The notes beneath the pieces were generated by a model. That model had not been told where the DNA came from. It worked only from the letters and a program-made list of their open reading frames with translations, and did not search any database. A program made the translations under genes and the position numbers. A stretch of 42,498 nucleotides of DNA from a virus: positions 1-42,498 of IMG/VR virus record IMGVR_UViG_3300025154_000195; one strand, given 5' to 3'. Positions 236 to 38,145 of this stretch are shown here, piece after piece. The first letter of the stretch is position 1, and every line of letters begins with the position of its first letter.

Positions 236-739
236 TTATGCAAAGCACAGTCTGCCATGGATGGCCCCTGCATCTTTGAGTTGTTTATACAAGTCTTTCA
301 ACATGGCTTCGACTGCAGCCCTGAACCCATGGTCAGTGTCACGTATGCCGTCATGATGACAATATCCGTTGTATTCCATCTGCTTTACGGTAATGCTGTC
401 GTATGCTTCCACATGCCGCTCTGCATATCCAAGCATTGAACACGCCAAAGCCTCGAAGCCTGCCACATACGTGTATGCGATAACATCAACGATGGTCCGA
501 TCTGTTATCACGACATCAAACCTTGCAGCCGCCTCGATCTCCTGTTGAATTTGCCTGGAAAATATCCATGACTGAGCCTGCTCTGTTGTATCCATGTTTA
601 TTTTAAACGGGCACAAGGCCTCAAGATCACACAGCAGATAAACAGATTTGTCCGGGTGAATAAGTTTTTGATTCCTATATTCATAGGCTGCTGCTGTAGA
701 CTTACCTGTGCCATGCGTTCCTGAAAAAGATATTTGCAT
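236..739 (-). CDS. P-loop nucleotide kinase-like ATPase
   Basis: A protein of about 167 residues beginning MQISFSGTHGTGKST; the Walker A motif GTHGTGKST starts around residue 7. A middle segment FDVVITDRTIVDVIAYTY resembles the Walker B/DR region of small kinases of the AAA_28/NadR-kinase type. The family suggests phosphorylation of a nucleotide or nucleotide-like substrate, but the substrate cannot be read. The frame extends to a GTG at 751; I prefer ATG 739 because the P-loop then sits at the usual distance from the N-terminus. It is the fourth protein gene after the Cro-like gene in the leftward operon and is preceded by a conserved stem-loop. Such kinases are common in phage nucleotide-metabolism sets, which fits the dCMP deaminase and MazG-like genes elsewhere in the window. 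Confidence 0.7.
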   Translation of the reverse strand: MQISFSGTHGTGKSTAAAYEYRNQKLIHPDKSVYLLCDLEALCPFKINMDTTEQAQSWIFSRQIQQEIEAAARFDVVITDRTIVDVIAYTYVAGFEALACSMLGYAERHVEAYDSITVKQMEYNGYCHHDGIRDTDHGFRAAVEAMLKDLYKQLKDAGAIHGRLCFA

Positions 740-776
740 CAATAAGGTCACTTTTATAATTGGCTAAATTATGGCG

Positions 777-822
777 CCGGGTTCGACAAAGGCCAGCCCC
801 GGCAGGCTTTCTTGGAGAGAGT
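777..822 (-). repeat. GCCGG/CCGGC stem-loop repeat, copy 2
   Basis: On the minus strand GCCGGGG...CCCGGC forms a stem around a loop containing CTGGCC. It matches the copy at 134-178 in arms, spacing and most of the loop. It fills much of the gap between the stop of the 238-residue gene and the start of the kinase-like gene. Confidence 0.5.
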
Positions 823-1538
823 TATGCAATTACCGGGATATCCGGCAGAATTTCGTTGAAATAATCGCGGATACCTGTGACGGCTTTCAGCCTCCATGCT
901 GACCCATCTGCCTCATTGAGAGAGCAGGAAATATCGTCATTGTCATGAATGCGGAATACGAATTCAGATTCTGGCTGTTTAATTTCTGCAAAGGTGCGGA
1001 ATGGCTGGAGAATGATGGGGTTCTTAAACTCCACTTCCCGCCGCATGGATACGCCCTTCCTGACTTCCATTTTTTGGCTGTGCCCGGTGTCGTTGATCGT
1101 TCCAACGCTCTCCTTGGTAATATTGCTGCAGACAGAGAGTAAAGCGTTCCGGTGATCTGTTTCCTGGAACTGTGAAAGCAGCGCGATCACGAACTTTTCG
1201 GGATTGTATTTGGTACCAAATTGAAAATCAGTTACTAAAGCACTGGATGAAATGAAAACATGGCGCTGCAGCCATGGCCCAAATGAATCCGTTTCAAGAA
1301 ATACCTGAGTTGGAGAAGCCACATGGATGTGCATATTCTTTGCGTATTCTGGCTCAACATTACCTTTCACAAAGTCCACAATGCCGGTCAATGTACTGAT
1401 ACCAAGCGTCTCCACGGTGGACGCTTTGACGGGCGAAAAACCACTTTTAATGAACTCTTTTTCACCGACCTGAATTTTCTTTTCAAGGTCAATCATCTCT
1501 CTGAACTGAATCATTGCGTTCGACAGCATGTCATTCAT
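822..1538 (-). CDS. unknown early protein, 238 residues
   Basis: I do not recognise this protein. It is soluble and has no obvious catalytic motif. The N-terminal part (MNDMLSNAMIQFREMIDLEKK) looks helical; the central and C-terminal parts alternate hydrophobic and polar residues as in a beta-rich fold, with an Asp-rich turn HDNDDIS near residue 200. The ATG at 1538 has a good ribosome site (AGGAGAG, about 7 bases upstream) and lies 3 bases after the preceding gene, so the two are almost certainly co-translated. Its place between early genes after the Cro-like gene suggests a role in early infection or recombination/replication, which is inference only. Confidence 0.75.
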   Translation of the reverse strand: MNDMLSNAMIQFREMIDLEKKIQVGEKEFIKSGFSPVKASTVETLGISTLTGIVDFVKGNVEPEYAKNMHIHVASPTQVFLETDSFGPWLQRHVFISSSALVTDFQFGTKYNPEKFVIALLSQFQETDHRNALLSVCSNITKESVGTINDTGHSQKMEVRKGVSMRREVEFKNPIILQPFRTFAEIKQPESEFVFRIHDNDDISCSLNEADGSAWRLKAVTGIRDYFNEILPDIPVIA

Positions 1539-1541
1539 GAA

Positions 1542-1898
1542 TTATCTCTCCTGGGCTCTTCCGCCGATAACGGATATATTGGGTTTACCTGAATCATCAA
1601 ACATGTCATCCTCTTTTGCCGTAGGTTCCAAAGCGGTTTTGGATTGTGCATCCATAAACGCCTTGCTTTGGATGGTATGGCGTTTGCCAAGTTTATTTCC
1701 TGTCTCTATTGTGATTTCCAGCCAGCTTCGATTATGATCCGGCTTAATTTTGATCTTGCATGATATCTCCCTGGCTGAACCCGGGACCTTGTTGACGTCG
1801 AAGCAGTCTGCTATGACCTCCTGGAGTTCGTACTCAAGCCGTTCCAGGATGGCCCCTCCTTCAAGGTCTTCTATTGTCAATTCTCTCGTTAATTCCAT
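1542..1898 (-). CDS. unknown early protein, 118 residues
   Basis: A small acidic protein starting MELTRELTIEDLEGG, with no recognised domain. A central EISCKIKIKPDHNRSWLEI stretch is predicted beta strand, and the C-terminus is polar (KEDDMFDDSGK). The ATG at 1898 follows GGAG at about 8 bases, with a second AGGAGG further upstream. It is tightly followed by the 238-residue gene. Its leader carries the structured RNA region at 1930-2050, so translation of this gene may respond to folding or processing of that RNA. Confidence 0.7.
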   Translation of the reverse strand: MELTRELTIEDLEGGAILERLEYELQEVIADCFDVNKVPGSAREISCKIKIKPDHNRSWLEITIETGNKLGKRHTIQSKAFMDAQSKTALEPTAKEDDMFDDSGKPNISVIGGRAQER

Positions 1899-1929
1899 TA
1901 TTTATTCTCCAACCTCCTTTTTCGGGCCT

Positions 1930-2050
1930 TGACCGCTCCCCAGCAGATCGCTGACCCTTGTTAATTGTTGTGGTGTTGCCGTATAACCATCCCGCCCAAG
2001 CTGTTTCCACCGGGTAGTTCACTGGATTATTTCCAGCGGACGGGCCAGTC
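1930..2050 (-). ncRNA. candidate c4-like antisense RNA
   Basis: The gap between two early genes has no convincing protein but folds well as minus-strand RNA. A 7-bp stem CCCGUCC/GGGCGGG (2038-2044 with 1991-1997) encloses a CUGGA-AAUAA-UCCAG hairpin (2022-2036). Downstream, bases 1934-1957 are the exact reverse complement of 9776-9799 in the antirepressor leader, over 24 bases, and can form a small hairpin (CAGC/GCUG) whose GAUCU loop is complementary to the matching AGAUC loop of the target. An extended -10 promoter lies just upstream. Known analogue: C4 antisense RNA of phages P1/P7 (Rfam RF01695), which blocks antirepressor translation. Assignment to that family is inference; I could not run a covariance search. 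Confidence 0.6.
1934..1957. repeat. 24-bp repeat shared with the antirepressor leader (copy 1)
   Basis: These 24 bases begin CGCTCCCCAGCAG and end CGCTGACCC on the plus strand and recur without mismatch at 9776-9799. The centre is a dyad CAGC-N5-GCTG. Because the early operon is transcribed leftward and the antirepressor rightward, the two transcripts are complementary here. Confidence 0.9.
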
Positions 2051-2055
2051 AAAAA

Positions 2056-2064
2056 ATTATGCCA
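2056..2064 (-). promoter_or_regulatory. extended -10 promoter for the structured RNA
   Basis: On the minus strand the sequence TGGCATAAT matches the extended -10 pattern TGnTATAAT with one mismatch. A start about 7 bases downstream falls at 2049-2050, exactly where the foldable RNA begins (GACUGGCCCGUCC). The promoter overlaps the stop codon of the upstream gene. No good -35 is visible, as is usual for extended -10 promoters. Confidence 0.45.
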
Positions 2065-2506
2065 AGGATTTGTCAAAATCCTGTTCTATCTCATCTAATA
2101 AGGCCCGCTTTGCAGCCTGTTTGCGCTCAATCGTTGCCGCAGGGTCCTTCATTATTTCCGTGTAATATGAGAGCGCCGGCAGGTTATCAAGCAGCTCCTC
2201 TGCAAGTGTGCTCTTATCTGCCGCCACAGGTGTGTTTCGAACAAATTTTCCGCCACAAATCCGGCAAAAACGATCAGCGATTGTCTGAGCCAATACAGGG
2301 TTCTTAATCATAATTGCCGTGAGCATCCTCTCTGCCTTCTCAATGAATGAAATACGGGCCTCGCCGTTTCTGTCCGGATGAGCCGCTTGCTTGTAAACGT
2401 GTGTTTTGCCGCATGAAATCAAATCAGCCATTACCGTGGCGGTAACAGATTGCACTGCTTGCCTGAAAAGGTCCGAAGGGTGTTCCGTGGCTACCGATAA
2501 AGTCAT
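2057..2506 (-). CDS. unknown early protein with CxxC pair, 149 residues
   Basis: A mostly helical protein starting MTLSVATEHPSDLFRQ. It has one CRICGG motif near residue 84 that could be half of a metal site, and a charged C-terminal helix. No family recognised. The ATG at 2506 has GAGG about 6 bases upstream. It is the first gene after the Cro-like gene in the leftward operon; its last codons overlap the promoter of the structured RNA. Confidence 0.7.
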   Translation of the reverse strand: MTLSVATEHPSDLFRQAVQSVTATVMADLISCGKTHVYKQAAHPDRNGEARISFIEKAERMLTAIMIKNPVLAQTIADRFCRICGGKFVRNTPVAADKSTLAEELLDNLPALSYYTEIMKDPAATIERKQAAKRALLDEIEQDFDKSLA

Positions 2507-2587
2507 TTTAGCCTCGCTATCATGTTTATCTTATTGATATTATTGGCACAAACAAAGAAATAATTGATTTAAGCATTGTTATATTGC

Positions 2588-2803
2588 CTAATATGAAGTC
2601 TGCTTGGTTAAGGCTTGCTTAATTGCTGATTCTTTCTGAATCCTTGTACCAAAAATCCAAATTTCAGGGTTTGAATTTGTTTTTTTGGAAATATTCTCTA
2701 AAACCTTTTTTCTCGGCTGACTTTTCCCTGAAAGTATTTTTGACAAATAACCTTCCGATATACCGAGATATTTAGCTGCTATTCTTTGCTTTAGTTTTTC
2801 CAT
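2588..2803 (-). CDS. Cro-like HTH repressor
   Basis: A 71-residue protein from ATG 2803 (MEKLKQRIAAKYLGISEGYLSKILSGKSQPRKK...). Residues 5-35 fit an XRE/Cro-type helix-turn-helix, with recognition helix around EGYLSKILSGK. The frame extends up to a TTG at 2839, but that codon is part of a TTGACA box, so the ATG is preferred. It is divergent from the CI-like gene at 2907 and heads the leftward lytic operon, which is the position of cro. It should bind operators in the shared 2804-2906 gap. The leader would be very short, so the mRNA may be leaderless or nearly so. Confidence 0.7.
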   Translation of the reverse strand: MEKLKQRIAAKYLGISEGYLSKILSGKSQPRKKVLENISKKTNSNPEIWIFGTRIQKESAIKQALTKQTSY

Positions 2804-2906
2804 GGTGGAAACATTGCCATATTGGAAACATATTGTCAAACTAAAATTTCTTTCCGGGAAAGTTTTTTTTGTTTAACTTTTTAAATCTTTCCAATATTGA
2901 TAAGAA
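2804..2906. promoter_or_regulatory. divergent immunity control region with operator-like repeats
   Basis: The gap between the Cro-like and CI-like genes carries several related sites: GGAAACAT at 2807-2814 and 2824-2831, the palindrome CTTTCCGGGAAAG at 2850-2862, and TTTCCAATAT at 2888-2897, which is the exact inverse of ATATTGGAAA at 2819-2828. All share a TTTCC/GGAAA half-site. A TTGACA box lies on the minus strand at 2834-2839 for the leftward operon. On the plus strand, TTTAAC (2872-2877) and TATTGA (2895-2900) are 17 bp apart and would start transcription near the CI ATG, as in a leaderless cI mRNA. The promoters are weak matches; the operators are the stronger claim. Confidence 0.6.
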
Positions 2907-3362
2907 ATGAAATCTAATTATTCGACATATTTATATTTTCGAGCATTTGTCAAAAAATGGCTTAAAGATAATGGCAAAACTCAAAATTGGCTTGCGCTTG
3001 AGTTACAAGTTGAAGATGGCACGATTAGCAAATACCTTGGGAATGATTTCAGGATAGCGCCATTCGAAAAGCAACTTCAAATATCTGATATAATTGAAGT
3101 TGATTATTTAGAAATACTTCAAAAAGGGAAAGATATTATAGATGGGGAACCCATTAAAACAATAAAGATACTATCTGAACATCAAAACCTTGTTTCTAAA
3201 TTTAAAAATCCAGAAAAGGCTAAAGAAATAAATGAAGACTTGCTTATTCTGGAATCAATAGATTTACATGGTTACGAAGAAGTTCATGATATTATAAAAA
3301 TGAAGCTAAAAAGAAAAACAGAAGCTATAAAAAAGAGACCAGCAGCAAACGGAAACGACTAA
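2907..3362 (+). CDS. CI-like lysogeny repressor without S24 peptidase
   Basis: A 151-residue protein. Residues about 10-55 (VKKWLKDNGKTQNWLALELQ, then VEDGTISKYLG) form a helix-turn-helix of the phage repressor type. The rest is charged and helical, with no LexA/S24 peptidase motifs, so RecA-stimulated self-cleavage is not expected. The gene is divergent from the Cro-like gene across shared operator-like repeats and is the first gene of the plus-strand, lysogeny-side genes. No ribosome site is visible before ATG 2907; a leaderless message is possible. Induction would then need another input, and the Bro-N antirepressor at 9906 is the obvious candidate. The stop codon is provided by a repeat that recurs in the island. 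Confidence 0.7.
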   Translation: MKSNYSTYLYFRAFVKKWLKDNGKTQNWLALELQVEDGTISKYLGNDFRIAPFEKQLQISDIIEVDYLEILQKGKDIIDGEPIKTIKILSEHQNLVSKFKNPEKAKEINEDLLILESIDLHGYEEVHDIIKMKLKRKTEAIKKRPAANGND

Positions 3363-3389
3363 ATGCAGAATCATACTATTTAGCAAATA
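3341..3389 (+). repeat. island repeat ACTAAATGCCGGAT, copy A
   Basis: The segment has AACGACTAAATGC, AATCATAC and TTTAGCAAA blocks. It overlaps the end of the CI-like gene and supplies its stop. Related copies are at 5306-5346, 5729-5770 and 8371-8415. CTAAA and TTTAG form short inverted arms in copies A and C. Confidence 0.55.
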
Positions 3390-3472
3390 TTTTGACGGGA
3401 ATATATCGAGTGAGCCCTAATTTTATTGTTTCATTTGTCAGTTTTCTAAATTTCACCTCATAAGGAGGTTTT

Positions 3473-4240
3473 ATGCAAAACCTTTCATGCCCAAAGTGTG
3501 AGTTCAAACGAAATCCTGGGGCTGTTGAATGTCCTCGGTGCGGGATCATTTTTGAGAAGTATGAACAGATTCAAAAAAGAAAAGCTCAAGAAGCTAAGGA
3601 TGAAAAGGCTAAACAAGAAGAGGCTAAACAGGAAGATGTTGAAGATATCAAAAAGAGAACACAACAACAAAAAGCTTCTACGCCTCCCCAAAAAGAAGAT
3701 GACACAAGAAGCTATAAAAAACATAGAAGATTAATTAATCCAGTAATAGTTTCAAGCATTATTGTGGCTTTTGTAATCTCTTTTATTGGATATAAGACTT
3801 ATTTAAAAATAGATGCCGATACAGCACAAGCCGAGTTTTCGACATTTATAAAAAGCGTATCTATCAAAATGATAACATTGGCCATTGACTCTGAAAGTGT
3901 AGTCGATGAAATCAACAGAGAGTGGCGTGAAGCTATCTATTCAGATTACAATAAACGTGATTTCAATGAAGCAATTATTGAAGTTCGTACCAAACGATTC
4001 AATACGATTTCATCCATCAAAAAATTATCAGAGGATATCGCTCAAAGTATAAAAAATATAACACCACCTCCTATCATGGAAAGCGACTATAAAAGGTTAA
4101 AAGAATTGTATTTACTATTCAATAAATATGCCGATATGGCTATTTCTCCATCAGGTTCGCTGCAAACATATTCGAGCCAAAACAATGAATTATCTGTCGA
4201 AATTAAAAGCGCTATCAAAGAATTGGAGATGATGAAATGA
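3473..4240 (+). CDS. zinc-ribbon, single-TM accessory protein
   Basis: A 255-residue protein in three parts. The N-terminus has CPKC (residue 6) and CPRCG (around 21), a four-Cys zinc ribbon. A long Lys/Glu/Gln-rich, probably coiled segment follows (about 30-85). One hydrophobic segment near 92-112 (VIVSSIIVAFVISFIGYKTY) is a membrane helix, and the remaining C-terminal half is helical. With the ribbon inside the cell, the C-terminal half would face the periplasm. The ATG has a strong AAGGAGG site. It lies next to the repressor in the AT-rich island and is probably expressed from the prophage. A role in superinfection exclusion or host fitness is inference; no function is recognised. Confidence 0.7.
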   Translation: MQNLSCPKCEFKRNPGAVECPRCGIIFEKYEQIQKRKAQEAKDEKAKQEEAKQEDVEDIKKRTQQQKASTPPQKEDDTRSYKKHRRLINPVIVSSIIVAFVISFIGYKTYLKIDADTAQAEFSTFIKSVSIKMITLAIDSESVVDEINREWREAIYSDYNKRDFNEAIIEVRTKRFNTISSIKKLSEDIAQSIKNITPPPIMESDYKRLKELYLLFNKYADMAISPSGSLQTYSSQNNELSVEIKSAIKELEMMK

Positions 4241-4260
4241 TTGGTTAGTCATTTCATCAT
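4229..4260. repeat. 11-bp perfect hairpin at a gene end
   Basis: ATGATGAAATG (4229-4239) and CATTTCATCAT (4250-4260) are perfect inverse copies around a 10-base loop, overlapping the stop codon of the zinc-ribbon membrane protein. There is no T-run, so it is not a classical intrinsic terminator; it may protect the 3' end of the message. Confidence 0.55.
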
Positions 4261-4323
4261 GCTCAACACTGAAACGATATCGGTGAATCCATGATTTAAA
4301 CCCAAAAAAAGAAGGAGCACGCT

Positions 4324-4603
4324 ATGAGAGACAAAGAGTATTACCAAATAACAAAAAACCTTCATATTACACAAGGAAAACTATCATTCAGTCTTGATGT
4401 CTTTGGTGACGAAATAGCCCAAGCGAGAGGGGTATAAAGAACTTCACGGGATGGAAGCTGTCTATTTTTATCTTGTCCACAAATTCAACTGGCTTCCTTC
4501 TGTTGTTCGAGGGATGTCTTTTGAAGATATCCGTTTTGTTCTAACTGAAGAATTATCAGGTTTCGTTTTGCCAAAAGAAGCTCGCGATTTAGATGATTAT
4601 TAG
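4324..4603 (+). pseudogene. small gene split by a single-base frameshift
   Basis: ATG 4324 follows a strong AAGGAG site and encodes MRDKEYYQITKNLHITQ and further residues to TAA 4435-4437 (37 residues). In the +1 frame, open from 4418, a protein-like sequence continues as GYKELHGMEAVYFYLVHK, then FNWLPSVVRGMSFEDIRF, and on to LPKEARDLDDY and TAG 4601-4603. Removing one G from the GGGG run at 4429-4432 joins the two into about 92 residues without a break. No family is recognised; the WLPSVVRGMSFEDI part resembles short tail-chaperone-like peptides only loosely. It may be a recent inactivation, a sequencing error in a homopolymer, or a frameshift used on purpose. A minus-strand ORF at 4485-4679 overlaps it. 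Confidence 0.55.
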
Positions 4604-4679
4604 TTTCATTGGTGCGCATTCCATATATTTTTGCTTTAAGGAACATGGCCTCATTCTCAATTTGTGATAGTTCATTCAT
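4485..4679 (-). CDS. possible small coiled-coil ORF antisense to the split gene
   Basis: A 64-codon frame starting MNELSQIENEAMFLKAK, Glu/Gln/Leu-rich and predicted helical. A TGAGGT ribosome site lies about 6 bases before the ATG. It overlaps the second half of the frameshifted plus-strand gene, so only one of the two is likely to be a real protein; the plus-strand reading looks more like a folded protein. Kept at low confidence. Confidence 0.3.
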   Translation of the reverse strand: MNELSQIENEAMFLKAKIYGMRTNETNNHLNRELLLAKRNLIILQLEQNGYLQKTSLEQQKEAS

Positions 4680-4696
4680 AACAACCTCATGTGGAT

Positions 4697-4807
4697 ATGG
4701 TTAATGATAACAGTAACTACAATATCAAAGGAAATCCGGCGACACAATACCAATTCCCAAATCATCCCATTTGCCAGGGAATAGACACTATAAATAGCTT
4801 TCAATGA
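4697..4807 (+). CDS. possible 36-residue leader ORF overlapping the next start
   Basis: ATG 4697 opens a 36-codon frame (MVNDNSNYNIKGNP...) whose TGA overlaps the ATG of the gene at 4804 as ATGA. The downstream gene has no clear ribosome site of its own, so coupling to this ORF would explain its translation. Ribosome-site support for the ORF is weak. Confidence 0.3.
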   Translation: MVNDNSNYNIKGNPATQYQFPNHPICQGIDTINSFQ

Positions 4808-5037
4808 ATTTTAATATAATAAGCCAAATAGAAGATGTTGAAACCATAGCAAAAGGGCAGGGCATCCGCATTTTATCTTTACTGGAAAAAGCCTATGGCC
4901 CAGGCAGCTGGCGTAAAATGAAGGGGATTGCAACAATACAGTTTTCAAACGGGGTGAGTGTAAGGGCTGAAATACACTGGTATGAAGCCCACGGGATAGG
5001 CCGGAAAGATTTTAAAATAAAAAGGATTATATCATGA
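4804..5037 (+). CDS. small conserved-type protein, first of a coupled pair
   Basis: A 77-residue protein with the stretches LEKAYGPGSWRKMKGIATIQ and AEIHWYEAHGIGRKDFKIK. I have the impression that this WYEAHGIGRK-type protein is a widespread small family of unknown function, but cannot verify it. Its stop overlaps the ATG of the next gene (ATGA at 5034-5037), so both are translated together. The two-gene overlap in an accessory island is the layout of toxin-antitoxin or immunity pairs; no toxin motif is visible, so function is left open. Confidence 0.65.
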   Translation: MNFNIISQIEDVETIAKGQGIRILSLLEKAYGPGSWRKMKGIATIQFSNGVSVRAEIHWYEAHGIGRKDFKIKRIIS

Positions 5038-5258
5038 ATACATTTGTTATCTGTATCAACAACAAAGATAACCCGGCAAGCCTGATCATGGGTAAAGTAT
5101 ACCGGCAGCTGCCGGACAAGGACGCGGAAAAAAGAAATATGCTACGGGTTATAGATGAAGATATAGCAGAGCTGGATGGGTATCTTTACCCATCGGTTAT
5201 TTTCGCCCAGATCGATTTGCCAGAAGTCGCAAAAAAGGCCCTGCTGGCAGTTAATTAA
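5034..5258 (+). CDS. small conserved-type protein, second of a coupled pair
   Basis: A 74-residue protein starting MNTFVICINNKDNPASLIMG, with a KVYRQLPD segment and a C-terminal DLPEVAKKALLAVN. From memory it resembles a widely distributed small family of unknown function (CINNxDxPASL... YLYP). It is coupled to the upstream gene by an ATGA overlap. The last codons and the stop lie in the first unit of an exact 34-bp tandem duplication. Confidence 0.65.
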   Translation: MNTFVICINNKDNPASLIMGKVYRQLPDKDAEKRNMLRVIDEDIAELDGYLYPSVIFAQIDLPEVAKKALLAVN

Positions 5259-5307
5259 AAAAGAGAACATCAACCTGCTGGCAGTTAATTAAAAAAGAGA
5301 ACATCAA
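5240..5307 (+). repeat. 34-bp exact tandem duplication
   Basis: Two identical units, 5240-5273 and 5274-5307, start CCTGCTGGCAG and end GAGAACATCAA. The first unit includes the last codons and stop of the upstream gene. The perfect identity suggests a recent slippage or unequal recombination event. Confidence 0.9.
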
Positions 5308-5382
5308 ACGGAGAAGACTAAATGCCGGATCGATCCCATTTATCAAAAAAAATAGAACAAACAATATCATGGGATCCCTGAT
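5306..5382 (+). repeat. island repeat, copy B, with GGGATCCC palindrome
   Basis: The block AAGACTAAATGCCGGATCG (around 5314-5332) matches the other island repeats. About 50 bases further on is ATCATGGGATCCCTGAT (5366-5382). Copy C at 5729 has the same two parts at nearly the same spacing. Confidence 0.55.
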
Positions 5383-5422
5383 TTTCAGATAACAGTTTAA
5401 ACCAAACAAAATGGAGATAACC

Positions 5423-5722
5423 ATGAGCTGGATAGAAACATTAACAAAAGAGACCTTTTTTTCGGCGATCCGGGAGGCAATGAAGCCTCAAATAGATCAA
5501 ATAGATACTCGTATGACGGCACTTGAGCGCAATATGTTTGGTTTAAGAGAAAGGGTGTCTCGGTTAGAAAGCGTGGTCGAAGGCAGCACAAAGGCAAATG
5601 AAGCTAACATCCGGGCTTATGAACTCTCTATGCGGAACCTAATCCTGGAATTCAAGGCCGAGTTCCTTCAACGCAAGCTTGATCAAAAAACCGGATATGA
5701 CAAGCATCAAACTGGAAGTTAG
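5423..5722 (+). CDS. small coiled-coil protein
   Basis: A 99-residue protein from ATG 5423 (MSWIETLTKETFFSAIREAM), which has GGAG about 6 bases upstream; the frame also allows ATG 5411. Residues about 20-85 form heptad-like helices (IDQIDTRMTALERN, then VSRLESVVEGSTK). No membrane segment or catalytic motif. It is flanked by island repeats B and C on both sides, as though it were a discrete cassette. Function unknown. Confidence 0.6.
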   Translation: MSWIETLTKETFFSAIREAMKPQIDQIDTRMTALERNMFGLRERVSRLESVVEGSTKANEANIRAYELSMRNLILEFKAEFLQRKLDQKTGYDKHQTGS

Positions 5723-5728
5723 AAGCAT

Positions 5729-5803
5729 CCAACGACGAAGACTAAATTCCGGATGATACCGTTTAGCAAATTTGGCTTTTCTGAAAAATCAGGGAACCCT
5801 GAT
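5729..5803 (+). repeat. island repeat, copy C, with ATCAGGG hairpin
   Basis: AAGACTAAATTCCGGATGATA (around 5738-5758) is followed by CCGTTTAGCAAA and, at 5788-5803, the perfect hairpin ATCAGGG-AA-CCCTGAT. The two-part layout matches copy B. Confidence 0.55.
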
Positions 5804-5886
5804 AGATTTCAACAGAAAAACCATGTATGGTTAAAGTTATGATATACGGGCAATATTACTAACTTATATTTTAAAAGGATGTGGTT

Positions 5887-6612
5887 ATGGCTGATATTTT
5901 TACTGAACAGAATGGGAAAGTGACTAACAGGATGTTTTCTATCAAATTATTGACTCCTGACCCAAACGAATTAAATTATCAAAAAATTTTGAAGTGGCAG
6001 GAAAATTTAAATATTTCTTTTCAGAAACAATTCCCTTATGCTAGCACGGTATGTCCTGAACCAGAAAAACAAAAACAAGATTTTTTTGTTATCCATCACA
6101 AAAAAAACTACCGCAGCATAACTGTCAGCAGCAACCACATTCAATACGATGATAAAAAAATAACTGAAACTGTGTTTAAAAATATTAGTAAACGCCTGTA
6201 TGACTTATACGTCGGGGATCGAAAGGTAGATCTAAAAAAAATACAATTAGTCGGCACTGTTTGCGATATACAATATAAAGGGGAAGGTCTTTTTTCAGAT
6301 TTTCGAGAAAGATATGGTTTCTATCCAGGCGAGGGCGACCTGAAGATGATAGAACTCAGAACTAAATTTATTCGAGATAAATTTAATATTCACCTCTATC
6401 TCTTTAGCGACATTTCTGTAAATGATGATGATGATGATGATGATGTTCAAAACGATAAAGATAAAATATATGTAAAAATAGATATCAATAATACTGAACA
6501 AACCAAAGGAATTTCTGATGGCACATGTAATGATGTTGTCGAATATTCAAAAAAATTTATAGCAGATGAATTGCTCGATATTTTAAATTCAAAAATAATT
6601 AATCTGGAATAA
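5887..6612 (+). CDS. unknown accessory protein, 241 residues
   Basis: From ATG 5887, with AAAAGGA about 8 bases upstream (a GTG at 5881 is in frame). The protein starts MADIFTEQNGKVTNRMF and is soluble and lysine-rich. A run of seven Asp (residues about 180-186) is encoded by seven GAT triplets at 6424-6444. No catalytic motif or family recognised. It ends 2 bases before the next gene, a coiled-coil membrane protein, so the two are probably partners. AT-rich base use compared with the head and tail genes suggests separate acquisition. Confidence 0.65.
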   Translation: MADIFTEQNGKVTNRMFSIKLLTPDPNELNYQKILKWQENLNISFQKQFPYASTVCPEPEKQKQDFFVIHHKKNYRSITVSSNHIQYDDKKITETVFKNISKRLYDLYVGDRKVDLKKIQLVGTVCDIQYKGEGLFSDFRERYGFYPGEGDLKMIELRTKFIRDKFNIHLYLFSDISVNDDDDDDDVQNDKDKIYVKIDINNTEQTKGISDGTCNDVVEYSKKFIADELLDILNSKIINLE

Positions 6613-6614
6613 TC

Positions 6615-7271
6615 ATGACTTCATCTTCATCATTACCTGGCAATATAACGCCCCTCTTTCCTAATTCAGGAAGCGAGGCTCTTATCAAAGAAGAGGGAAA
6701 AAAGGTTGGCATAAAGCCTGAAACAACTGCGCCATTCATTAGTGACAGTGCAACTTGTAATGTGGGGTACAAATTTTATATTGATGATGATACATTAAAA
6801 ACAGAAGAGGACAAAATAGAGCGAAAAAAGGATCAAACGATGGGTGATAATTACAACGACAAATACATTGAACAACGCTTCAAAAACATTGAAGAGCGAC
6901 TGGATCACAAATTAGAGAGAGTCTCCTCAAAAATTGATTTCTTGGCCGACAAAATTAGTGACAATACCGAGTGGATGAAACAGATGGTTGATAACATCTC
7001 CGATGATGTGAAGGAAATTAAAATCGAAGGGAAAACTACCCGAACAGCAATAGCAACAACAGTTATAGGAGCACTGTTTGCTCTTTTTATTGGCTTGGCC
7101 TGCATACTCTATATGATTAACCAAATGCAAAATTCTTGGCTGCAAAAATACTTAGATATCACACGGACGCCGCCAAGTATCAGTCAGTCCATAAATTCGC
7201 AGGTGCCCACTCAAAATAAAACACCCGCAAAGCAAACGAACTCACAACAAACCCAGACAAATAAACAATAG
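6615..7271 (+). CDS. coiled-coil protein with one C-terminal membrane helix
   Basis: A 218-residue protein. The N-terminal third is polar, residues about 80-140 form a coiled coil (YIEQRFKNIEERLDHKLERV), and a hydrophobic segment near 147-168 (TVIGALFALFIGLACILYMI) is a membrane helix. The C-terminal tail is rich in Gln, Asn, Thr and Pro. The layout resembles small phage or prophage membrane-anchored coiled-coil proteins (XhlA/DUF1640-like in form only). It directly follows the 241-residue gene, which it could tether to the membrane. A role in exclusion is inference. Confidence 0.65.
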   Translation: MTSSSSLPGNITPLFPNSGSEALIKEEGKKVGIKPETTAPFISDSATCNVGYKFYIDDDTLKTEEDKIERKKDQTMGDNYNDKYIEQRFKNIEERLDHKLERVSSKIDFLADKISDNTEWMKQMVDNISDDVKEIKIEGKTTRTAIATTVIGALFALFIGLACILYMINQMQNSWLQKYLDITRTPPSISQSINSQVPTQNKTPAKQTNSQQTQTNKQ

Positions 7272-7280
7272 TTAGCTGCT

Positions 7281-7480
7281 TTATTGCCAGACCATAGATG
7301 CCCGATGGTTCAATTCTTCACGCGTCACGAGATTCAACATGTCAGCCAGCATTTTTAGGCTTGTATCCGGGATTGATCTGAACTATTCCAAAGCAGCGTG
7401 CTTATCATCCTGGGCATCCTGTTCCGGCTCCCACCCGTCAGCCCAGCCATTTTTCAAAGTCTTGTCCAGTAGAATTCCTG
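7281..7480 (-). pseudogene. broken C-terminal copy of the replication protein
   Basis: The minus strand encodes LDKTLKNGWADGWEPEQ, then an in-frame TAG after ALE, then FRSIPDTSLKMLADMLNL and TREELNHR before a final TAA. This matches the C-terminus of the replication protein at 36437-37333 (LDKTIKNKWADGWEPGPE, EQFRNLPIGTLKMLADVGN, MEELKRRDHG). The TAG stands where the intact gene has a Gln codon. The N-terminal part is absent; upstream sequence is the end of the PLD-like gene. It is best read as a decayed fragment of a related replication gene left by recombination. Confidence 0.75.
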
Positions 7481-7521
7481 GAACACAATAAAAAAAATGT
7501 GATCGCCATTCTTCAGTAAAT

Positions 7522-8277
7522 TTACGAGCAAAAATCAGGGTCTTTCCATAATCTTTCAAAATAATCCTTATAATCCTCAAATCCCTCACCAGGGCTTTTG
7601 AATTCATATGATATTGTTTGCTGGCTGGATATCCCATACCTGTAGGGGCCTATGAAAATATTGTTATCCTGCCTGAAATAAAAATCTTGTGGAAGGTGGG
7701 AATAAAATTTGATTTGAACATCATCAGGATTTACTGCGGCATCTTTCAGTTCATTAACCCACTTTTCCAGATTGATGATAGTATTTTTGATTTGATCAGG
7801 CACTTCTTTTTCTTCTTCGGATCTCTTTATAACAACTTCAGAGTCTGGGTGAGGCGCAATGATTCTAACCTTCAACCCCTTTTTAACCTTATGTAAAACC
7901 CTGTCGCCTTTAATATCCCGGAAAGATTTAAGCCCCCAGGCAATAATATCCAAATTATTTTCTAAATTATCAAATGATTCATCTGCGCTGGCGTTCATCT
8001 TCTGTCTGGTTTTGTAAATGGCCTTTATCCCCCAGGTATTAATCAGTTCTTTGGTTTTTCGTATGCGGATCAAGTATTTTGATGTCAGAAACGAAACAAT
8101 GGACGTGGCTATTAATGAACACCCAACACTGAGAATTATTGTTTTTAAATCCTGTTTTCCTGCGGTGATAAGCATGCTTCCAAATGCGCAAGCAATACCG
8201 AGAATACAGATCGCTATATTGATAATATCTGAATTTGTTTGCTCTAATTTTTCATTTATTTTGTAAGATATACTCAT
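7522..8277 (-). CDS. two-TM protein with PLD-like C-terminal domain
   Basis: A 251-residue protein, with a strong AAGGGGGA site before ATG 8277. Two hydrophobic segments lie at about 20-40 (IINIAICILGIACAFGSML) and 47-67 (TIILSVGCSLIATSIVSFL). The cytoplasmic part carries GLKVRIIAPHPDSEVVIKR and, near the end, FYFRQDNNIFIGPYRYG and QTISYEFKSPG, a strand pattern like the catalytic-fold halves of phospholipase-D-like proteins. Clear HKD motifs are not seen, so activity is uncertain. It is the only minus-strand gene in the plus-strand island, has its own promoter region, and is AT-rich. Membrane-linked defence or exclusion is a reasonable but unproven role. Confidence 0.65.
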   Translation of the reverse strand: MSISYKINEKLEQTNSDIINIAICILGIACAFGSMLITAGKQDLKTIILSVGCSLIATSIVSFLTSKYLIRIRKTKELINTWGIKAIYKTRQKMNASADESFDNLENNLDIIAWGLKSFRDIKGDRVLHKVKKGLKVRIIAPHPDSEVVIKRSEEEKEVPDQIKNTIINLEKWVNELKDAAVNPDDVQIKFYSHLPQDFYFRQDNNIFIGPYRYGISSQQTISYEFKSPGEGFEDYKDYFERLWKDPDFCS

Positions 8278-8370
8278 AATAATCCCCCTTTAGCATAAAA
8301 TCCACACACCCATGCCGCATTCGCCTATCATGCCAGGACAAAATATTTGTATCACCATTTCCTATAAAAA

Positions 8371-8415
8371 AACAGCAGCGAACAGGAACCAACTAAATGC
8401 CGGATCATACCATAT
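8371..8415 (+). repeat. island repeat, copy D
   Basis: AACAGCAGCGAACAGGAACC followed by AACTAAATGCCGGATCATACC resembles copy A over about 45 bases. It lies in the gap between the divergent PLD-like gene and the gene at 8486. Confidence 0.55.
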
Positions 8416-8485
8416 GATTGAAACAGTTGCGGCTTATGTCGTTTTATGTCATTTTGAAAAAAATCTTATAATCCGGAGGAACAAA

Positions 8486-9247
8486 ATGCCTGACAAAATG
8501 ACCATAGAGTTCAACAACTCCAAGCCGGTAGAGCTTATATGTTACACGAACAGCCTCTTATGTCTTGCGGACGAATATCGTCAATTTCTTTTGCAGGACC
8601 ATGGGCAGCCCTCTGCGGACGACTCAAAGCTGTATATCAAAGGGATCAAGCAGGGCAGTATTATTGCCGACCTGATTTCTTTAAGCCCTGGGGCTTTGCC
8701 GGCCATAGGTGATTTCAATAATATTCTTGCCTTTTCTAATTATCTCAAGTGTTTCTTTGGGGCACTGACTTCCGATTCTCCGGATACCGGATATAACCAG
8801 AAAAGTTTGAAAAACATATCCGGATTTATAGACCCTGTGGCAGAAGACAGCAAAGCGCAATATAAAATCTCCACAGAAATCAATGGAGATATCAACCTTG
8901 TGATAAACATTAATTCAACCGAGGCAAACGCTATCCAGAATAAAACCAGGAAGATTCTTGAAAACATGAAAGAACCTATTTCAGGAACATACAAAAATGC
9001 CGTCCTGTATTGGTTTCAAACACGAAACACTTTAAAAAGCCAGGCTGGATATCAGGGGAAGATTGAAGAGTTTTCTTCAAATCCAGTGCGAGTTATTATG
9101 GATTCAGAAATTCAAAAGAAAATAATCACATCCGATGAAAACATCTACAAACTTGCGTACATTGTGGATGTTAAAGTCAACACGATTGATGACAAGCCGG
9201 TTTTATATGAAATTTTAAAGCTCCACGATAAAATTCCAAAAGATTAA
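8486..9247 (+). CDS. unknown accessory protein, 253 residues
   Basis: ATG 8486 has a good GGAGGA site; the frame is open further upstream but that part crosses a repeat and is not protein-like. The protein starts MPDKMTIEFNNSKPVEL, includes YIKGIKQGSIIADLISL near residue 50, and is alpha/beta in pattern without a membrane segment. I recall similar IKG.KQGSII motifs in unannotated bacterial proteins but cannot name a family. It is the gene before the HicB/HicA pair and is followed by a 28-bp tandem duplication. Confidence 0.65.
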   Translation: MPDKMTIEFNNSKPVELICYTNSLLCLADEYRQFLLQDHGQPSADDSKLYIKGIKQGSIIADLISLSPGALPAIGDFNNILAFSNYLKCFFGALTSDSPDTGYNQKSLKNISGFIDPVAEDSKAQYKISTEINGDINLVININSTEANAIQNKTRKILENMKEPISGTYKNAVLYWFQTRNTLKSQAGYQGKIEEFSSNPVRVIMDSEIQKKIITSDENIYKLAYIVDVKVNTIDDKPVLYEILKLHDKIPKD

Positions 9248-9264
9248 CTTTTCGAGAATTCCGG

Positions 9265-9320
9265 GGGAATTCCGGGGACACTATATAAAAAAGGGAATTC
9301 CGGGGACACTATATAAAAAA
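9265..9320 (+). repeat. 28-bp exact tandem duplication with GAATTCCGGGGACAC core
   Basis: Units 9265-9292 and 9293-9320 are identical (GGGAATTCCGGGGACAC...), with a partial third start at 9321. The last unit supplies the purine-rich stretch before the ribosome site of hicB. GAATTCCGGGGACAC-type sequences are, from memory, common dispersed repeats in deltaproteobacteria, often near RAYT/IS200-type transposases; none is present here. Confidence 0.85.
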
Positions 9321-9330
9321 GGGGAATACC

Positions 9331-9534
9331 ATGAAATTCACACTTATATACGGCATAGACGACGGCTGGTACGTAGGGCGTTTACAGGAGATTCCAGGCG
9401 TAATCAGCCAGGGAGAAACACTTGAAGAACTCAAAGAGAACATTGCCGATGCCTACAAGCTTCTTATGGAGGACGCCATGGGACTTCCGGTACCGGGACT
9501 TCACACTGAAGAAATAGACCTGAACTTTGCATGA
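9331..9534 (+). CDS. hicB: HicB-type antitoxin
   Basis: A 67-residue protein: MKFTLIYGIDDGWYVGRLQE, IPGVISQGETLEELKENIAD and AYKLLMEDAM are the standard HicB-fold core (partial RNase H-like). No C-terminal DNA-binding domain is present, so this is the short form. The ATG has AAGGGGA 5-6 bases upstream. The stop overlaps the start of the toxin gene (ATGA at 9531-9534). HicB would bind and block the HicA mRNA interferase. The pair probably stabilises the prophage or limits competing phages. Confidence 0.88.
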   Translation: MKFTLIYGIDDGWYVGRLQEIPGVISQGETLEELKENIADAYKLLMEDAMGLPVPGLHTEEIDLNFA

Positions 9535-9710
9535 AGCGACGCAAATTTATTAAGGAGCTTGTTGAACATGGCTGTTATCTGAAACGACACGGCAGCAGTC
9601 ATGATCTGTATGCCAATCCAGCCAACGGCAAGGTTTCACCAGTTCCGCGCCACCCGGAAATAAAAGACCTGACATGCAGGCTGATCCGGAATCAGTTGGG
9701 GATTGACTGA
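9531..9710 (+). CDS. hicA: HicA-type mRNA interferase toxin
   Basis: A 59-residue protein starting MKRRKFIKELVEHGCYLKRH. GSSHDLY follows, with the family catalytic His at residue 24, then VPRHPEIKDLT, the usual HicA C-terminal pattern. Length is normal for HicA. It starts inside the hicB stop codon, so translation is coupled and the antitoxin comes first, the reverse of many hicAB operons. The family cleaves mRNA in a dsRBD-like fold. Confidence 0.88.
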   Translation: MKRRKFIKELVEHGCYLKRHGSSHDLYANPANGKVSPVPRHPEIKDLTCRLIRNQLGID

Positions 9711-9736
9711 AATAGCTATAGCGGCGTTAAAAATAT

Positions 9737-9766
9737 TTGACATTTTTATTTTGATCATGAGAGAAT
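9737..9766 (+). promoter_or_regulatory. candidate antirepressor promoter
   Basis: TTGACA (9737-9742) and GAGAAT (9761-9766) are 18 bp apart. The -35 is perfect; the -10 matches at four of six positions. A start near 9773 would put the 24-base repeat at the extreme 5' end of the transcript. Confidence 0.5.
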
Positions 9767-9775
9767 AACAACGAT

Positions 9776-9799
9776 CGCTCCCCAGCAGATCGCTGACCC
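9776..9799. repeat. 24-bp repeat in the antirepressor leader (copy 2)
   Basis: Identical to 1934-1957. In the antirepressor mRNA it would be paired by the minus-strand early transcript. Its last three bases (CCC, 9797-9799) are also the start of the hairpin that holds the leader ORF ribosome site, so pairing here would change that hairpin. It can also form a small CAGC-AGAUC-GCUG hairpin. Confidence 0.9.
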
Positions 9800-9905
9800 C
9801 TCCACCATGGAGGGGTAAAATGCAAAAATCAGCAAGCACAATAAAATCTAAATCTAAATTTGCGTCATACACCTCCTTTTATTCAAAAACTTTAAAGGAG
9901 GTCGT
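9796..9905 (+). promoter_or_regulatory. two ribosome-site hairpins in the antirepressor leader
   Basis: Hairpin 1: ACCCCTCC (9796-9803) pairs with GGAGGGGT (9809-9816) around ACCAT; its 3' arm is the ribosome site of the ORF at 9820. Hairpin 2: ACCTCCTTT pairs perfectly with AAAGGAGGT, the ribosome site of the antirepressor at 9906, around a loop of about 14 bases. Ribosomes on the leader ORF would run through hairpin 2 and free the antirepressor site. This predicts strict translational coupling. Confidence 0.75.
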
Positions 9906-9909
9906 ATGA
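9820..9909 (+). CDS. 29-residue leader ORF coupled to the antirepressor
   Basis: ATG 9820 follows GGAGGGG at 5 bases and encodes a basic, Ser/Lys-rich peptide (MQKSASTIKSKSKFASY...). Its TGA overlaps the antirepressor ATG (ATGA at 9906-9909). The peptide itself need not have a function: the ORF runs through the hairpin that hides the antirepressor ribosome site. It stands where orfx/icd stands in the P1/P7 immI operon. The call as a translated ORF rests on the ribosome site, the overlap and the hairpin, not on homology. Confidence 0.6.
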   Translation: MQKSASTIKSKSKFASYTSFYSKTLKEVV

Positions 9910-10667
9910 GCAACATCATTCCATTTTCGTACCAAGAAAAAGAAATCAGAGTTATCGAGGACCAGGAAGGAAATCCATGGTGGGTTGCCAAGGATATTTG
10001 TGAAATTCTTGGGTATGCTGATCATAATTCAGCAGTGAGAAACCACCTGGATGATGATGAAAAGGGTATGCATACAGCGCAGACCCCTGGCGGAAAGCAA
10101 GAACTCATCACGGTTAACGAATCCGGCCTTTATACACTTATGGTCAAATCTACAAAACCGGAAGCAAAACCATTCCGAAGATGGGTGACATCAGAAGTCC
10201 TTCCATCAATCCGTAAAACAGGCTCATACACCATGCCTGACTACGAACCAGAAACACTGATCCCCGTATCAAACGAATTCAAAGCGGCCGTTGCAATTGC
10301 AAAGGCCGCCGGACTGAAAGGAAATCAGGCCACACTTTGCGCGAATACAGCAGTTCGCCGCATAACCGGCGTAAACCTTCTTGATATTATTGGCGCCACA
10401 CACTTGATCTGTGAAGAGCAGGAACAACACCTGACAGCCACCCAGCTTGGTAAAATACTGGGGCTCACCGCCCAAAAAACCAATAAGCTGCTTGAACAAA
10501 ATGGCGTCATTGAATCTTACCGGGACGATAAAAACAAGCTCAACTGGAAGCCAACCGCCAAAGGCAAACAATATACCATTCTCAAAGATACCGGTAAAAA
10601 ATCCGGGTCCGGGACCCCTGTTCAGCAACTTTTTTTCCTTGAAAGCGTCCGGGAGGTGATGTCATGA
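9906..10667 (+). CDS. ant: Bro-N/KilAC phage antirepressor
   Basis: A 253-residue protein. Residues about 1-110 are a Bro-N domain (NPWWVAKDICEILGYAD, VNESGLYTLMVKSTKPEAKP, FRRWVTSEVLPSIRKTGSY). Residues about 120-250 form a KilAC/ANT-type C-terminal domain (LTATQLGKILGLTAQKTNKL). The family includes antirepressors that inactivate phage repressors. It has a strong AAAGGAGGT site sequestered in a hairpin and is coupled to a leader ORF. The next gene overlaps it by ATGA. It is the likely trigger of induction, because the CI-like repressor lacks a cleavage domain. Gene symbol by analogy with P1/P22 ant. Confidence 0.85.
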   Translation: MSNIIPFSYQEKEIRVIEDQEGNPWWVAKDICEILGYADHNSAVRNHLDDDEKGMHTAQTPGGKQELITVNESGLYTLMVKSTKPEAKPFRRWVTSEVLPSIRKTGSYTMPDYEPETLIPVSNEFKAAVAIAKAAGLKGNQATLCANTAVRRITGVNLLDIIGATHLICEEQEQHLTATQLGKILGLTAQKTNKLLEQNGVIESYRDDKNKLNWKPTAKGKQYTILKDTGKKSGSGTPVQQLFFLESVREVMS

Positions 10668-11233
10668 ACCTCCAAACCGCCCACACCACATCAATCCCGG
10701 CAACACGCATAATCGCCATGGAATACGCACCAGCCCCATTAAAACTGACCCGATCCATCCGCCGACAAATATACACCGCAGACCTGGTCTTTGCCATGGT
10801 CACCAGCCTCGATTGCGACATGCCTAAAAAAACCTTTGACGTGATGGCCCGCATCCAGGCCCGGGTAGACAACATCAACAAAATACTATACGGCGGCGGT
10901 AAGTTCGTCCTGGCCCAAAAGGACTGGGAAAAATACAACCGAATCATAAACGAAATGAAAACCATGATCCTGAACATCAGCGACGACAACAAACTGGGCC
11001 CGGATTTTTTCAATGCCATAATGCTGATGGTGGAAGAGGCCTATGAAAGCGTAACGCAATCCAAAAACCAGAGATTGCAGCACGAATGGGCCATGCTCAG
11101 GAAATCCATGGGAACATTTTGCAGCCACATAATTAACGAGCCAGACGGATTCGATCCGGATTGGATCGGGTATAAATATGAATCAATCGGTGTGGCCCTG
11201 GGCGAGAAGTTTGAAAAAGTAATCATGGCATAA
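10664..11233 (+). CDS. unknown protein in the antirepressor operon, 189 residues
   Basis: A mostly helical protein starting MNLQTAHTTSIPATRI, with a KTFDVMARIQARVDNINKIL helix near residue 50 and an acidic C-terminal part (NEPDGFDPDWIGYKYES). No domain recognised. It starts within the antirepressor stop (ATGA, 10664-10667) and is followed by the dCMP deaminase. Co-translation with the antirepressor suggests it works in the same induction step. Confidence 0.65.
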   Translation: MNLQTAHTTSIPATRIIAMEYAPAPLKLTRSIRRQIYTADLVFAMVTSLDCDMPKKTFDVMARIQARVDNINKILYGGGKFVLAQKDWEKYNRIINEMKTMILNISDDNKLGPDFFNAIMLMVEEAYESVTQSKNQRLQHEWAMLRKSMGTFCSHIINEPDGFDPDWIGYKYESIGVALGEKFEKVIMA

Positions 11234-36436: not shown

Positions 36437-37333
36437 TCAAACCATCGCATATTGGCGCCTTCCTGCAGTTGTGATACACAAGCCATGGTCCCGGCGTTTA
36501 AGCTCCTCCATAGCCACGACATTGCCCACATCAGCCAGCATCTTCAGGGTGCCAATCGGCAGATTTCGGAATTGCTCACCGGCGGCCTGCCTGTCCGCCG
36601 ATTTCTCCGGGCCCGGCTCCCAGCCGTCGGCCCATTTGTTTTTGATGGTCTTGTCAAGATATGCGCGGAATTGATTGCTTCCTCCACGAACATTGCTGGC
36701 TGAATATAAAATTGCTTTCTTAAGTTCGTTTTCAGAGCAATCAGACATGGCTTTATTTACCAGGGTCAACACCATGGGACTGCGATGGCATTCCGGAATC
36801 AAATTTAAAATTTGGGTAGAAGAAGACGACGACGACGACGGCAACGGAAGGACACCGCCACGAACCCTTGGGGCTGGTTCCGGTTCCGGCGTAGTAGTTT
36901 TTGTTTCTTTCAGTATTTGTTTATTATTAGTATTTAGTATGGGGTCGGTTTCCTGCTGGGTGAAAACCTGCTGGAAGGTTGATTCTGTTGATGTTTTTGC
37001 GGCAACATCCATGTTGAGATACTGTTCGGCCTCATCTCTTGTCAATGGCGGTAAACAGAGCACCTGTTCAACTTTTTTGATACGGCCATTTTCTCTTATG
37101 ACAAACCGGTGGTAAAAATTATTGGCGCCCCATTCTTGCACAGTAGACTTAACGGCATGGATACCCTCACTGTTTTGCTTGGCAAGCCAGGCAAAATTAA
37201 AATTCCAGTTCGCAGGCTTGCTCAGAACCTGCAGCAACATGAATTTAGCTTTTGCACTCATGTCCGGGTAGTTGGTGAAGATATCGTTCTGGATAACCGT
37301 GAAATTACGGTCTGGCTTGGGCATGATGATCAT
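36437..37333 (-). CDS. phage replication initiator-like protein
   Basis: A 298-residue protein. Residues about 5-100 are a winged-helix replication domain (NDIFTNYPDMSAKAKFMLLQ, WLAKQNSEGIHAVKSTVQEW), as in DnaD/gpO-like initiators. A low-complexity linker follows with seven Ser near 170. The C-terminal domain (LVNKAMSDCSENELKKAILY, YLDKTIKNKWADGWEPGPE) is helical. It probably loads the D5-type helicase at the phage origin. A broken copy of the C-terminus lies at 7281-7480. Confidence 0.72.
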   Translation of the reverse strand: MIIMPKPDRNFTVIQNDIFTNYPDMSAKAKFMLLQVLSKPANWNFNFAWLAKQNSEGIHAVKSTVQEWGANNFYHRFVIRENGRIKKVEQVLCLPPLTRDEAEQYLNMDVAAKTSTESTFQQVFTQQETDPILNTNNKQILKETKTTTPEPEPAPRVRGGVLPLPSSSSSSSTQILNLIPECHRSPMVLTLVNKAMSDCSENELKKAILYSASNVRGGSNQFRAYLDKTIKNKWADGWEPGPEKSADRQAAGEQFRNLPIGTLKMLADVGNVVAMEELKRRDHGLCITTAGRRQYAMV

Positions 37334-38145
37334 AATATCACCTCCCCGCCGGGCTGGGATAAACGCACACCCAGATAATAAATCACCCCGGATTTACGCC
37401 GCTCAAACTGCCTGGCCATCTCCATGCCAAAAGCTTTGAGGGTCACCGTGCCTGGAGATGGCAAGTTCTCCCTGGCCCAGGCGATGAACGCCTGATATAA
37501 CACCCCGGCCCGCTCTGAATATTCTTCTCCAACGTCGCACTGCTCATACATCCATCTTCCGATGGCGTCACGGGCCATGGATTTTTTGCCCAGGCCACCG
37601 GACTCCAGGCCGGAGGAGAGCTGTCTTTCATCCAGTTCGGCCAGCAGGTCATCCACCGGCATACCCGTGAAATAGTTCAGGGCCTTCAGGGCTGCCTTGC
37701 CCTCCAGGTACTTGTCCGCGCTCTCCACCAGCTTGGCCATGGGGAAATACATATTGCCGGACCGCTTCACACAGGCGTCATCCATGAACCTGGGATCTCC
37801 TGTGCCGGGCATCTGGTAGCTGCCTGTTTTGCGGATGGCGGGCAGGACCTCTTCGAAAATCCACGCTTCGAACTGTTCGGCTTCCGGGAGGTGGGATTTT
37901 ACGATGAGACGATAGACATCTGGTTCTTTTATTACTCTAACTTCCTGTTTCCCACCTGACGTATAAAGAAAGTAGTGATTTGCGACCCCCTTACAATGCC
38001 TTGAAATAGCGTCATTGGTATTCACATACCCCAAAGCAACGGCAACGTCCTTGGCAACAAACAATGAATTGCCATTCTCATCCCGGATCACCCGCACCAA
38101 ACTATCATCAAACCAAAACGGTGTTACTTCATGATTCATATTCAT
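37330..38145 (-). CDS. Bro-N protein with a D5-type C-terminal wing domain
   Basis: A 271-residue protein. The first 115 residues are Bro-N (NSLFVAKDVAVALGYVNTND, SHLPEAEQFEAWIFEEVLPA, IRKTGSYQMP). The last 80 (GRWMYEQCDVGEEYSERAGV, LYQAFIAWARENL, MARQFERRKSGVIYYLGVRL) resemble the winged helix found at the C-terminus of D5/P4-type helicases, including the one at 40926. It is a second Bro protein, in the lytic operon, and overlaps the replication gene by 4 bases. It may be an antirepressor or a replication regulator. Confidence 0.72.
   Translation of the reverse strand: MNMNHEVTPFWFDDSLVRVIRDENGNSLFVAKDVAVALGYVNTNDAISRHCKGVANHYFLYTSGGKQEVRVIKEPDVYRLIVKSHLPEAEQFEAWIFEEVLPAIRKTGSYQMPGTGDPRFMDDACVKRSGNMYFPMAKLVESADKYLEGKAALKALNYFTGMPVDDLLAELDERQLSSGLESGGLGKKSMARDAIGRWMYEQCDVGEEYSERAGVLYQAFIAWARENLPSPGTVTLKAFGMEMARQFERRKSGVIYYLGVRLSQPGGEVIL

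Follow-up and report, generated by a model that had tools for sequence, protein, structure and literature searches.

A leftward early RNA may unlock the apparently doubly hidden leader of a Bro antirepressor message

We analysed the virus record IMGVR_UViG_3300025154_000195 from IMG/VR over positions 1 to 42,498 (this whole stretch of 42,498 nucleotides is "the window" below; the record has no terminal repeat). The window encodes a bro antirepressor gene, and the first 27 nucleotides (nt) of its predicted mRNA are complementary to RNA from a leftward operon. We tentatively propose that the leftward RNA pairs in trans with the bro leader and activates bro through it. Judging from folding models, we consider this possible rather than probable. 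A preliminary description of the same DNA had also suggested RNA pairing. The idea survives in our models, where it can be sharpened to activation through two successive gates in the leader.

A block shared by the leftward operon and the bro leader

The 24-mer CGCTCCCCAGCAGATCGCTGACCC is identical at 1934-1957(+) and 9776-9799(+), as had been described before. There is no third site in the window, even if up to 3 mismatches are allowed, and 100 shuffles gave 0 matches. If one C/T difference is accepted, then the block extends to 27 nt (1931-1957 and 9773-9799). Between the two RNAs this difference becomes a G-U pair, so 27 pairs are possible in all. Copy 1 lies in a 158-nt gap (1899-2056) between two leftward open reading frames (ORFs), where RNA from the - strand would carry the complement of the 5' end of the bro mRNA. 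Copy 2, on the + strand, lies in the gap before bro (9711-9905). The perfect complementarity that had been claimed between an RNA of the leftward operon and the 5' leader of the Bro/ANT mRNA is borne out; the copies are 7.8 kb apart and are carried by opposite-strand transcripts.

As a base rate, we used the window and 79 other Bro loci (1.25 Mb). Exact direct repeats of at least 24 nt, spaced by at least 1.5 kb, are present in 5 of these 80 phage sequences, and the window is among the 5. A control with 24 random windows from the window gave 1 that reached 24 nt. The 24-nt repeat is not a random match; such repeats are uncommon, and they also have other origins.

A leader predicted to be doubly locked

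The bro gene (9906-10667, + strand) has the Bro-N plus ANT (KilAC) domains that are expected of a phage antirepressor (PF02498, E 5.7e-30, and PF03374, E 5.6e-07, both over cut-off), and it matches phrog_130 (E 5.2e-57). Upstream of it is a promoter-like TTGACA-18-GAGAAT (9737-9766, + strand), with TG before the second hexamer. By this consensus match, the RNA is predicted to start near 9773. Copy 2 starts 10 nt past the promoter-like -10 and lies at the predicted 5' end of the bro mRNA, where it had been placed before. There were 5 promoter-like sites in the scanned stretch on the bro side, against a shuffle average of 1.8.

The RNA from 9770-9905 is strongly structured (-38.9 versus a shuffle mean of -20.9, z -5.81, 0 of 200 shuffles). 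These energies, and those below, come from a folding model that has no proteins, ribosomes or kinetics. The leader contains an ORF of 29 codons (9820-9909, + strand) whose stop overlaps the start of bro (ATGA). As had been suggested, the ribosome site of this ORF, GGAGGGG (9809-9815), is predicted to be hidden by a hairpin, which we call gate 1 (9796-9816, + strand; 9 bp, -15.6 kcal/mol). Pairing was said to take three bases of this hairpin; it would in fact take four of the 9-bp arm, as the first four bases of gate 1 (ACCC, 9796-9799) belong to copy 2. A second predicted hairpin, gate 2 (9871-9902, + strand), is formed by ACCTCCTTT and AAAGGAGGT and would sequester bro's own ribosome site, AAAGGAGG. 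The bro leader looks doubly locked in the model, with separate hairpins over the leader-ORF site and the bro site.

For comparison, we took 80 loci from a wider Bro alignment, in which 592 of 599 candidates encode a relative. Together with the window, 79 of these 81 sequences gave 86 Bro starts (L196 and L232 gave none). We folded 84 of the starts, and 72 have a recognisable Shine-Dalgarno sequence (SD). Because SD accessibility is below 0.05 in 8 of the 72, including this bro and its relative described below, a fully hidden SD is uncommon yet not unique among Bro starts.

Modelled effect of pairing

We modelled pairing by barring 9773-9799 from internal base pairs, to mimic its capture in a duplex with another RNA. 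The leader SD can then be opened for 6.4 kcal/mol, down from 16.0, and the cost for 9809-9835 drops from 20.6 to 8.4 kcal/mol. The relative behaves similarly (16.2 to 6.9 kcal/mol for the leader SD and 20.8 to 9.6 kcal/mol for the corresponding stretch). Opening the bro SD costs 16.0 kcal/mol by itself and still 14.2 when 9773-9799 is paired, but 3.1 once a ribosome occupies the upstream arm of gate 2. Pairing thereby favours activation of bro in this model. The preliminary description left it open whether pairing would activate or silence, and the energy model, in which pairing unlocks the leader site, narrows this towards activation.

The duplex of the two RNAs scores -60.3 kcal/mol, or about -25 net after both partners are opened. 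When 992 windows were scanned against the bro leader, 1871-2040(-) was the best, with windows antisense to the leader's own locus set aside. We also dropped a second pairing that was spotted by eye, between the leftward AAAAGGAGGU and the anti-SD arm at 9871-9879: it is generic and is weakened in the relative.

Gene order and the proposed switch

The leftward genes run from a helix-turn-helix (HTH) gene (2588-2839) through 2057-2506, 1542-1898 (phrog_997) and 822-1538 (phrog_1029) to a kinase-like gene (236-751), and further along the record the same strand carries replication, head and packaging genes. The rightward order is 2907-3362 (weak repressor matches), genes of unknown function, a hicB-hicA-like pair, bro, a gene without a family, a deaminase-like gene (a label read off the sequence by eye, without a search), and an integrase. 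From this layout we infer that copy 1 would belong to the lytic half of the switch and copy 2 to the lysogenic half.

We propose that the bro mRNA begins near 9773 and is locked at two sites, and that a leftward early transcript bears the complement of its first 27 nt. At the onset of lytic transcription, the leftward RNA, most simply the operon mRNA around 1931-1957, would pair with the bro leader. Losing four bases of gate 1 would allow the leader ORF to be translated; a ribosome translating the leader would open gate 2, and Bro would be made. Bro would then inactivate the repressor, so that lytic transcription reinforces itself. The proposal supposes that both RNAs are made and meet, that control is positive, and that Bro acts on this phage's own repressor.

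In its most specific form, the proposal is of an mRNA-to-mRNA switch: the 5' part of an early lytic message, instead of a dedicated small RNA, would unlock the doubly hidden antirepressor message of the lysogenic operon. We are more doubtful of this form. If it is true, then lytic transcription directly licenses the removal of its own repressor, and an early lytic message that unlocks the antirepressor across the switch would form a positive loop for the lytic decision at the RNA level. A search of the open-licence literature with a few terms, covering titles and the beginnings of abstracts, found no report of a lytic mRNA that unlocks an antirepressor.

The source of the leftward RNA

Copy 1 had been placed in a structured, apparently non-coding stretch with its own extended -10 promoter. 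It does lie in a gap between genes: 2057-2506 (- strand; no family found) is in front of it, and 1542-1898 (- strand; phrog_997, E 9.1e-13; no Pfam family) is behind it, with an SD, AGGAGG, at 1918-1913, some 15 nt downstream of copy 1. The structure is another matter. The RNA from 1930-2049(-) is only a little more stable than its shuffled versions (z -1.73; 10 of 200 match it), and its inner hairpins refold in the relative, where the window's structure scores -32.3 (versus -40.4 in the window) and the best fold of the counterpart is -36.1. Rfam families gave no match in 1860-2120. We rejected a conserved, structured small RNA at 1930-2050, and the dedicated small RNA that had been suggested there is not supported. 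As for the promoter, a -35/-10 scan of 1200-3100 found no minus-strand site near the 24-mer (an extended -10 alone is outside the scan's reach). The scan found 3 promoter-like sites, all on the + strand, against a shuffle average of 3.8. The stretch TGGCATAAT overlaps the final codons and the stop of the upstream gene. The simplest source of a complementary RNA would be the operon mRNA itself.

Conservation in a relative and in other Bro phages

We found one relative, the contig IMGVR_UViG_3300020045_017368 (L004, L124 and G002 in our sets). It is 96% identical to the window over 346-3589 and 92% over 9331-11233. The same single contig was retrieved from viral contigs with bro, with the proteins of 822-1538 and 10664-11233, and with a two-row alignment of 2057-2506. 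A tandem 28-bp repeat, GGGAATTCCGGGGACACTATATAAAAAA, lies just upstream of the hicB-like gene in the window (9265-9320), and similarity to the relative starts right behind it, at 9331.

The relative keeps both copies of the 24-mer unchanged, and its leader ORF is open too. The surrounding sequences differ at 46 of 1086 columns around copy 1 (4.2%) and at 24 of 670 around copy 2 (3.6%). In the relative (L004 11728-12630), an in-frame stop interrupts the homolog of 1542-1898, whose SD is also weaker, and the homolog of 2057-2506 has a changed ATG, while the 24-mer is intact. These changes could be decay or sequencing error. Sequencing error aside, the intact 24-mer would speak against a purely cis role in the relative.

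Across the Bro loci, exact repeats of 16 nt or more at distances above 700 nt are present only in the window, in L124 (the same relative), in L159 (tandem paralogs), and in L222 (with the repeat about 1 kb away). This count is of exact matches, so imperfect pairs would be missed. Bro also has matches in 1156 phage records and in 27 of 395 genomes, whose leaders are left out of the count. In the sequences compared, Bro genes do not generally show the distant-pair arrangement.

Other searches added little. The protein of 2057-2506 has no match in the 395 genomes, which are of one phylum; this phylum may not be the host's, so the result shows little. Searches of phage records at the DNA level gave nothing useful, and a 17-mer scan of the genomes gave at least 119 stretches, which we took as chance. 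L238, which was found by its hairpin pattern, was rejected as a relative: no tested protein from the window matches it, and we consider it a chance match.

Points against pairing, and rival explanations

Several observations weigh against activation by pairing. A leftward RNA with its own promoter or a conserved fold is not supported. Under neutrality, both sites would keep their 24 nt with a probability of about 0.15, so the conservation of both copies in the relative is weak support. Beyond the window and its relative, the sampled Bro phages lack a comparable distant pair (exact matches only), and repeats that are just as long occur in 4 of the 79 other loci, from other causes. The raw duplex score is a weak discriminator, because the C4 RNA found elsewhere in the window reaches -56.1 with the leftward RNA (and -36.0 with the bro leader). 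Also, the 27-bp duplex could be a target of RNase III instead.

Two explanations without RNA pairing are possible and are live rivals. The first is that the 24-mer is a DNA operator, to which a regulator binds both within the leftward operon and at about +4 to +27 of the bro promoter, and that the RNA complementarity is incidental. The position at the start of the promoter fits this, and the 24-mer contains an imperfect dyad (CAGC-N5-GCTG). However, this dyad is not enriched (with at most 1 mismatch, 17 were found versus 11.8 expected, and 8 of 100 shuffles reach 17). There are just two 24-mers, with none between the divergent HTH genes (2588-2839 and 2907-3362), and no minus-strand promoter was called beside copy 1. 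A 24-bp identity is also more than an operator needs. We think an operator unlikely, although it fares best among the rivals.

The second is that the repeat is a relic, left without function by an old short duplication or by a recombination event. That a single close relative keeps both copies fits neutrality, as given above, and 5 of the 80 phage sequences have a comparable repeat. Against a relic, both copies are in intergenic gaps, one of them where a strongly structured antirepressor leader begins. We consider this explanation distinctly unlikely.

Silencing in the style of c4 or sar seems improbable. The leftward RNA would pair with the bro leader and block or destroy it, for instance via RNase III, for which a 27-bp duplex is a plausible substrate. 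However, the leader is already shut without a partner in the model, the pairing site does not cover the SD, and modelled pairing opens the SD instead of hiding it. In favour of silencing, published accounts give c4, sar and 24B_1 a negative role (PMC12197685, PMC4426718).

The least probable explanation reverses the direction: the lysogen would make the bro leader RNA, which would reduce or cleave the leftward lytic mRNA by pairing with it and so strengthen immunity. In its favour, the complementarity works both ways, and copy 1 is some 15 nt upstream of the SD of 1542-1898. However, pairing barely eases the opening of that ribosome site in the model (4.3 to 3.2 kcal/mol), and in the relative this gene is interrupted by a stop and its SD is weakened, with the 24-mer intact (sequencing error aside).

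Two other features of the window were noted. There is an exact 34-bp tandem duplication at 5240-5307. At 3433-3496(-) there is a weak SECIS_1-like match (26.7 bits, cut-off 35), which is present in the relative too and is probably a chance match in related sequence.

Comparison with C4 and other known systems

The preliminary description had called the circuit c4-like. RF01695 has 0 matches up to E 10 in 1860-2120, so this label does not hold, and the RNA from 1930-2050 is not a C4 RNA. It does share with the C4 family its complementarity to an antirepressor leader (27 nt, including one G-U). The c4 RNA of P1/P7 (RF01695) likewise controls an antirepressor through the leader, but it silences, while here the partner is remote and is predicted to activate. 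Reportedly, one transcript carries both c4 and, further downstream, its target; here the two transcripts are on opposite strands. In 9700-9960, Rfam gives six matches with E up to 10, each scoring well short of its cut-off.

The phage also has a separate bro gene (37330-38145, - strand) behind a canonical C4, which is the only C4 over the cut-off in the window (38557-38634, - strand; 53 bits, cut-off 45). The second Bro-N gene shares about 45% identity with the first in its N-terminal part, and short overlapping ORFs lie between the C4 and this gene. Just upstream of the C4, within 38557-38748(-), are an isrK-like match (41.1 bits) and a c4-a1b1-like match (31.7 bits), both below cut-off. In a survey of 50 of the 79 Bro loci, chosen by hand, the phage records have a C4 over the cut-off in 8 of 50 and at E 0.001 or better in 9 of 50. 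One of the loci, L173 (5354-9140), carries a pair of C4 RNAs with repeated flanks, spaced by about 2.8 kb, and has two Bro genes close by. L159 has tandem Bro paralogs (at 123 and 1009), each behind a similar GC-rich stem and then a T-run, and RF01695 finds no C4 in that record.

RNA control of antirepressors is already known. In the cases cited here, the RNA comes from the antirepressor's own locus or is described as silencing. The sar RNA of P22 is reportedly encoded at the ant locus itself. It is an antisense control of the antirepressor at translation (PMC12197685), as is proposed here, but it is negative, and here activation is predicted. The RNA 24B_1 of phage Phi24B, a 20-nt RNA seen by sequencing, is encoded far away in the same phage and is complementary over a short stretch to the antirepressor gene d_ant (PMC4426718). 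It sets a precedent, in that a phage RNA made elsewhere is proposed to target an antirepressor gene. However, its proposed site is within d_ant and not in a leader, and its proposed effect is negative.

The layout of the bro leader seems closest to IsrK-orf45-anrP of the Salmonella prophage Gifsy-1, where IsrK in trans activates the translation of anrP by about 140-fold via the coupled orf45 (PMC4825925). In both, a short upstream ORF overlaps the antirepressor start as AUGA (here, the leader ORF) and the ribosome site is hidden, here by prediction. Translation of the antirepressor is coupled to the short ORF in Gifsy-1; here, both the coupling and the opening of the hidden site by a trans RNA are predicted by the folding model. 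The isrK family itself (RF01394) has no match in 1860-2120 or 9700-9960; its sub-threshold match is at 38656-38735(-). IsrK is made at its target's locus and shares sequence with the target transcript, whereas the partner proposed here would come from another operon, on the opposite strand and 7.8 kb away.

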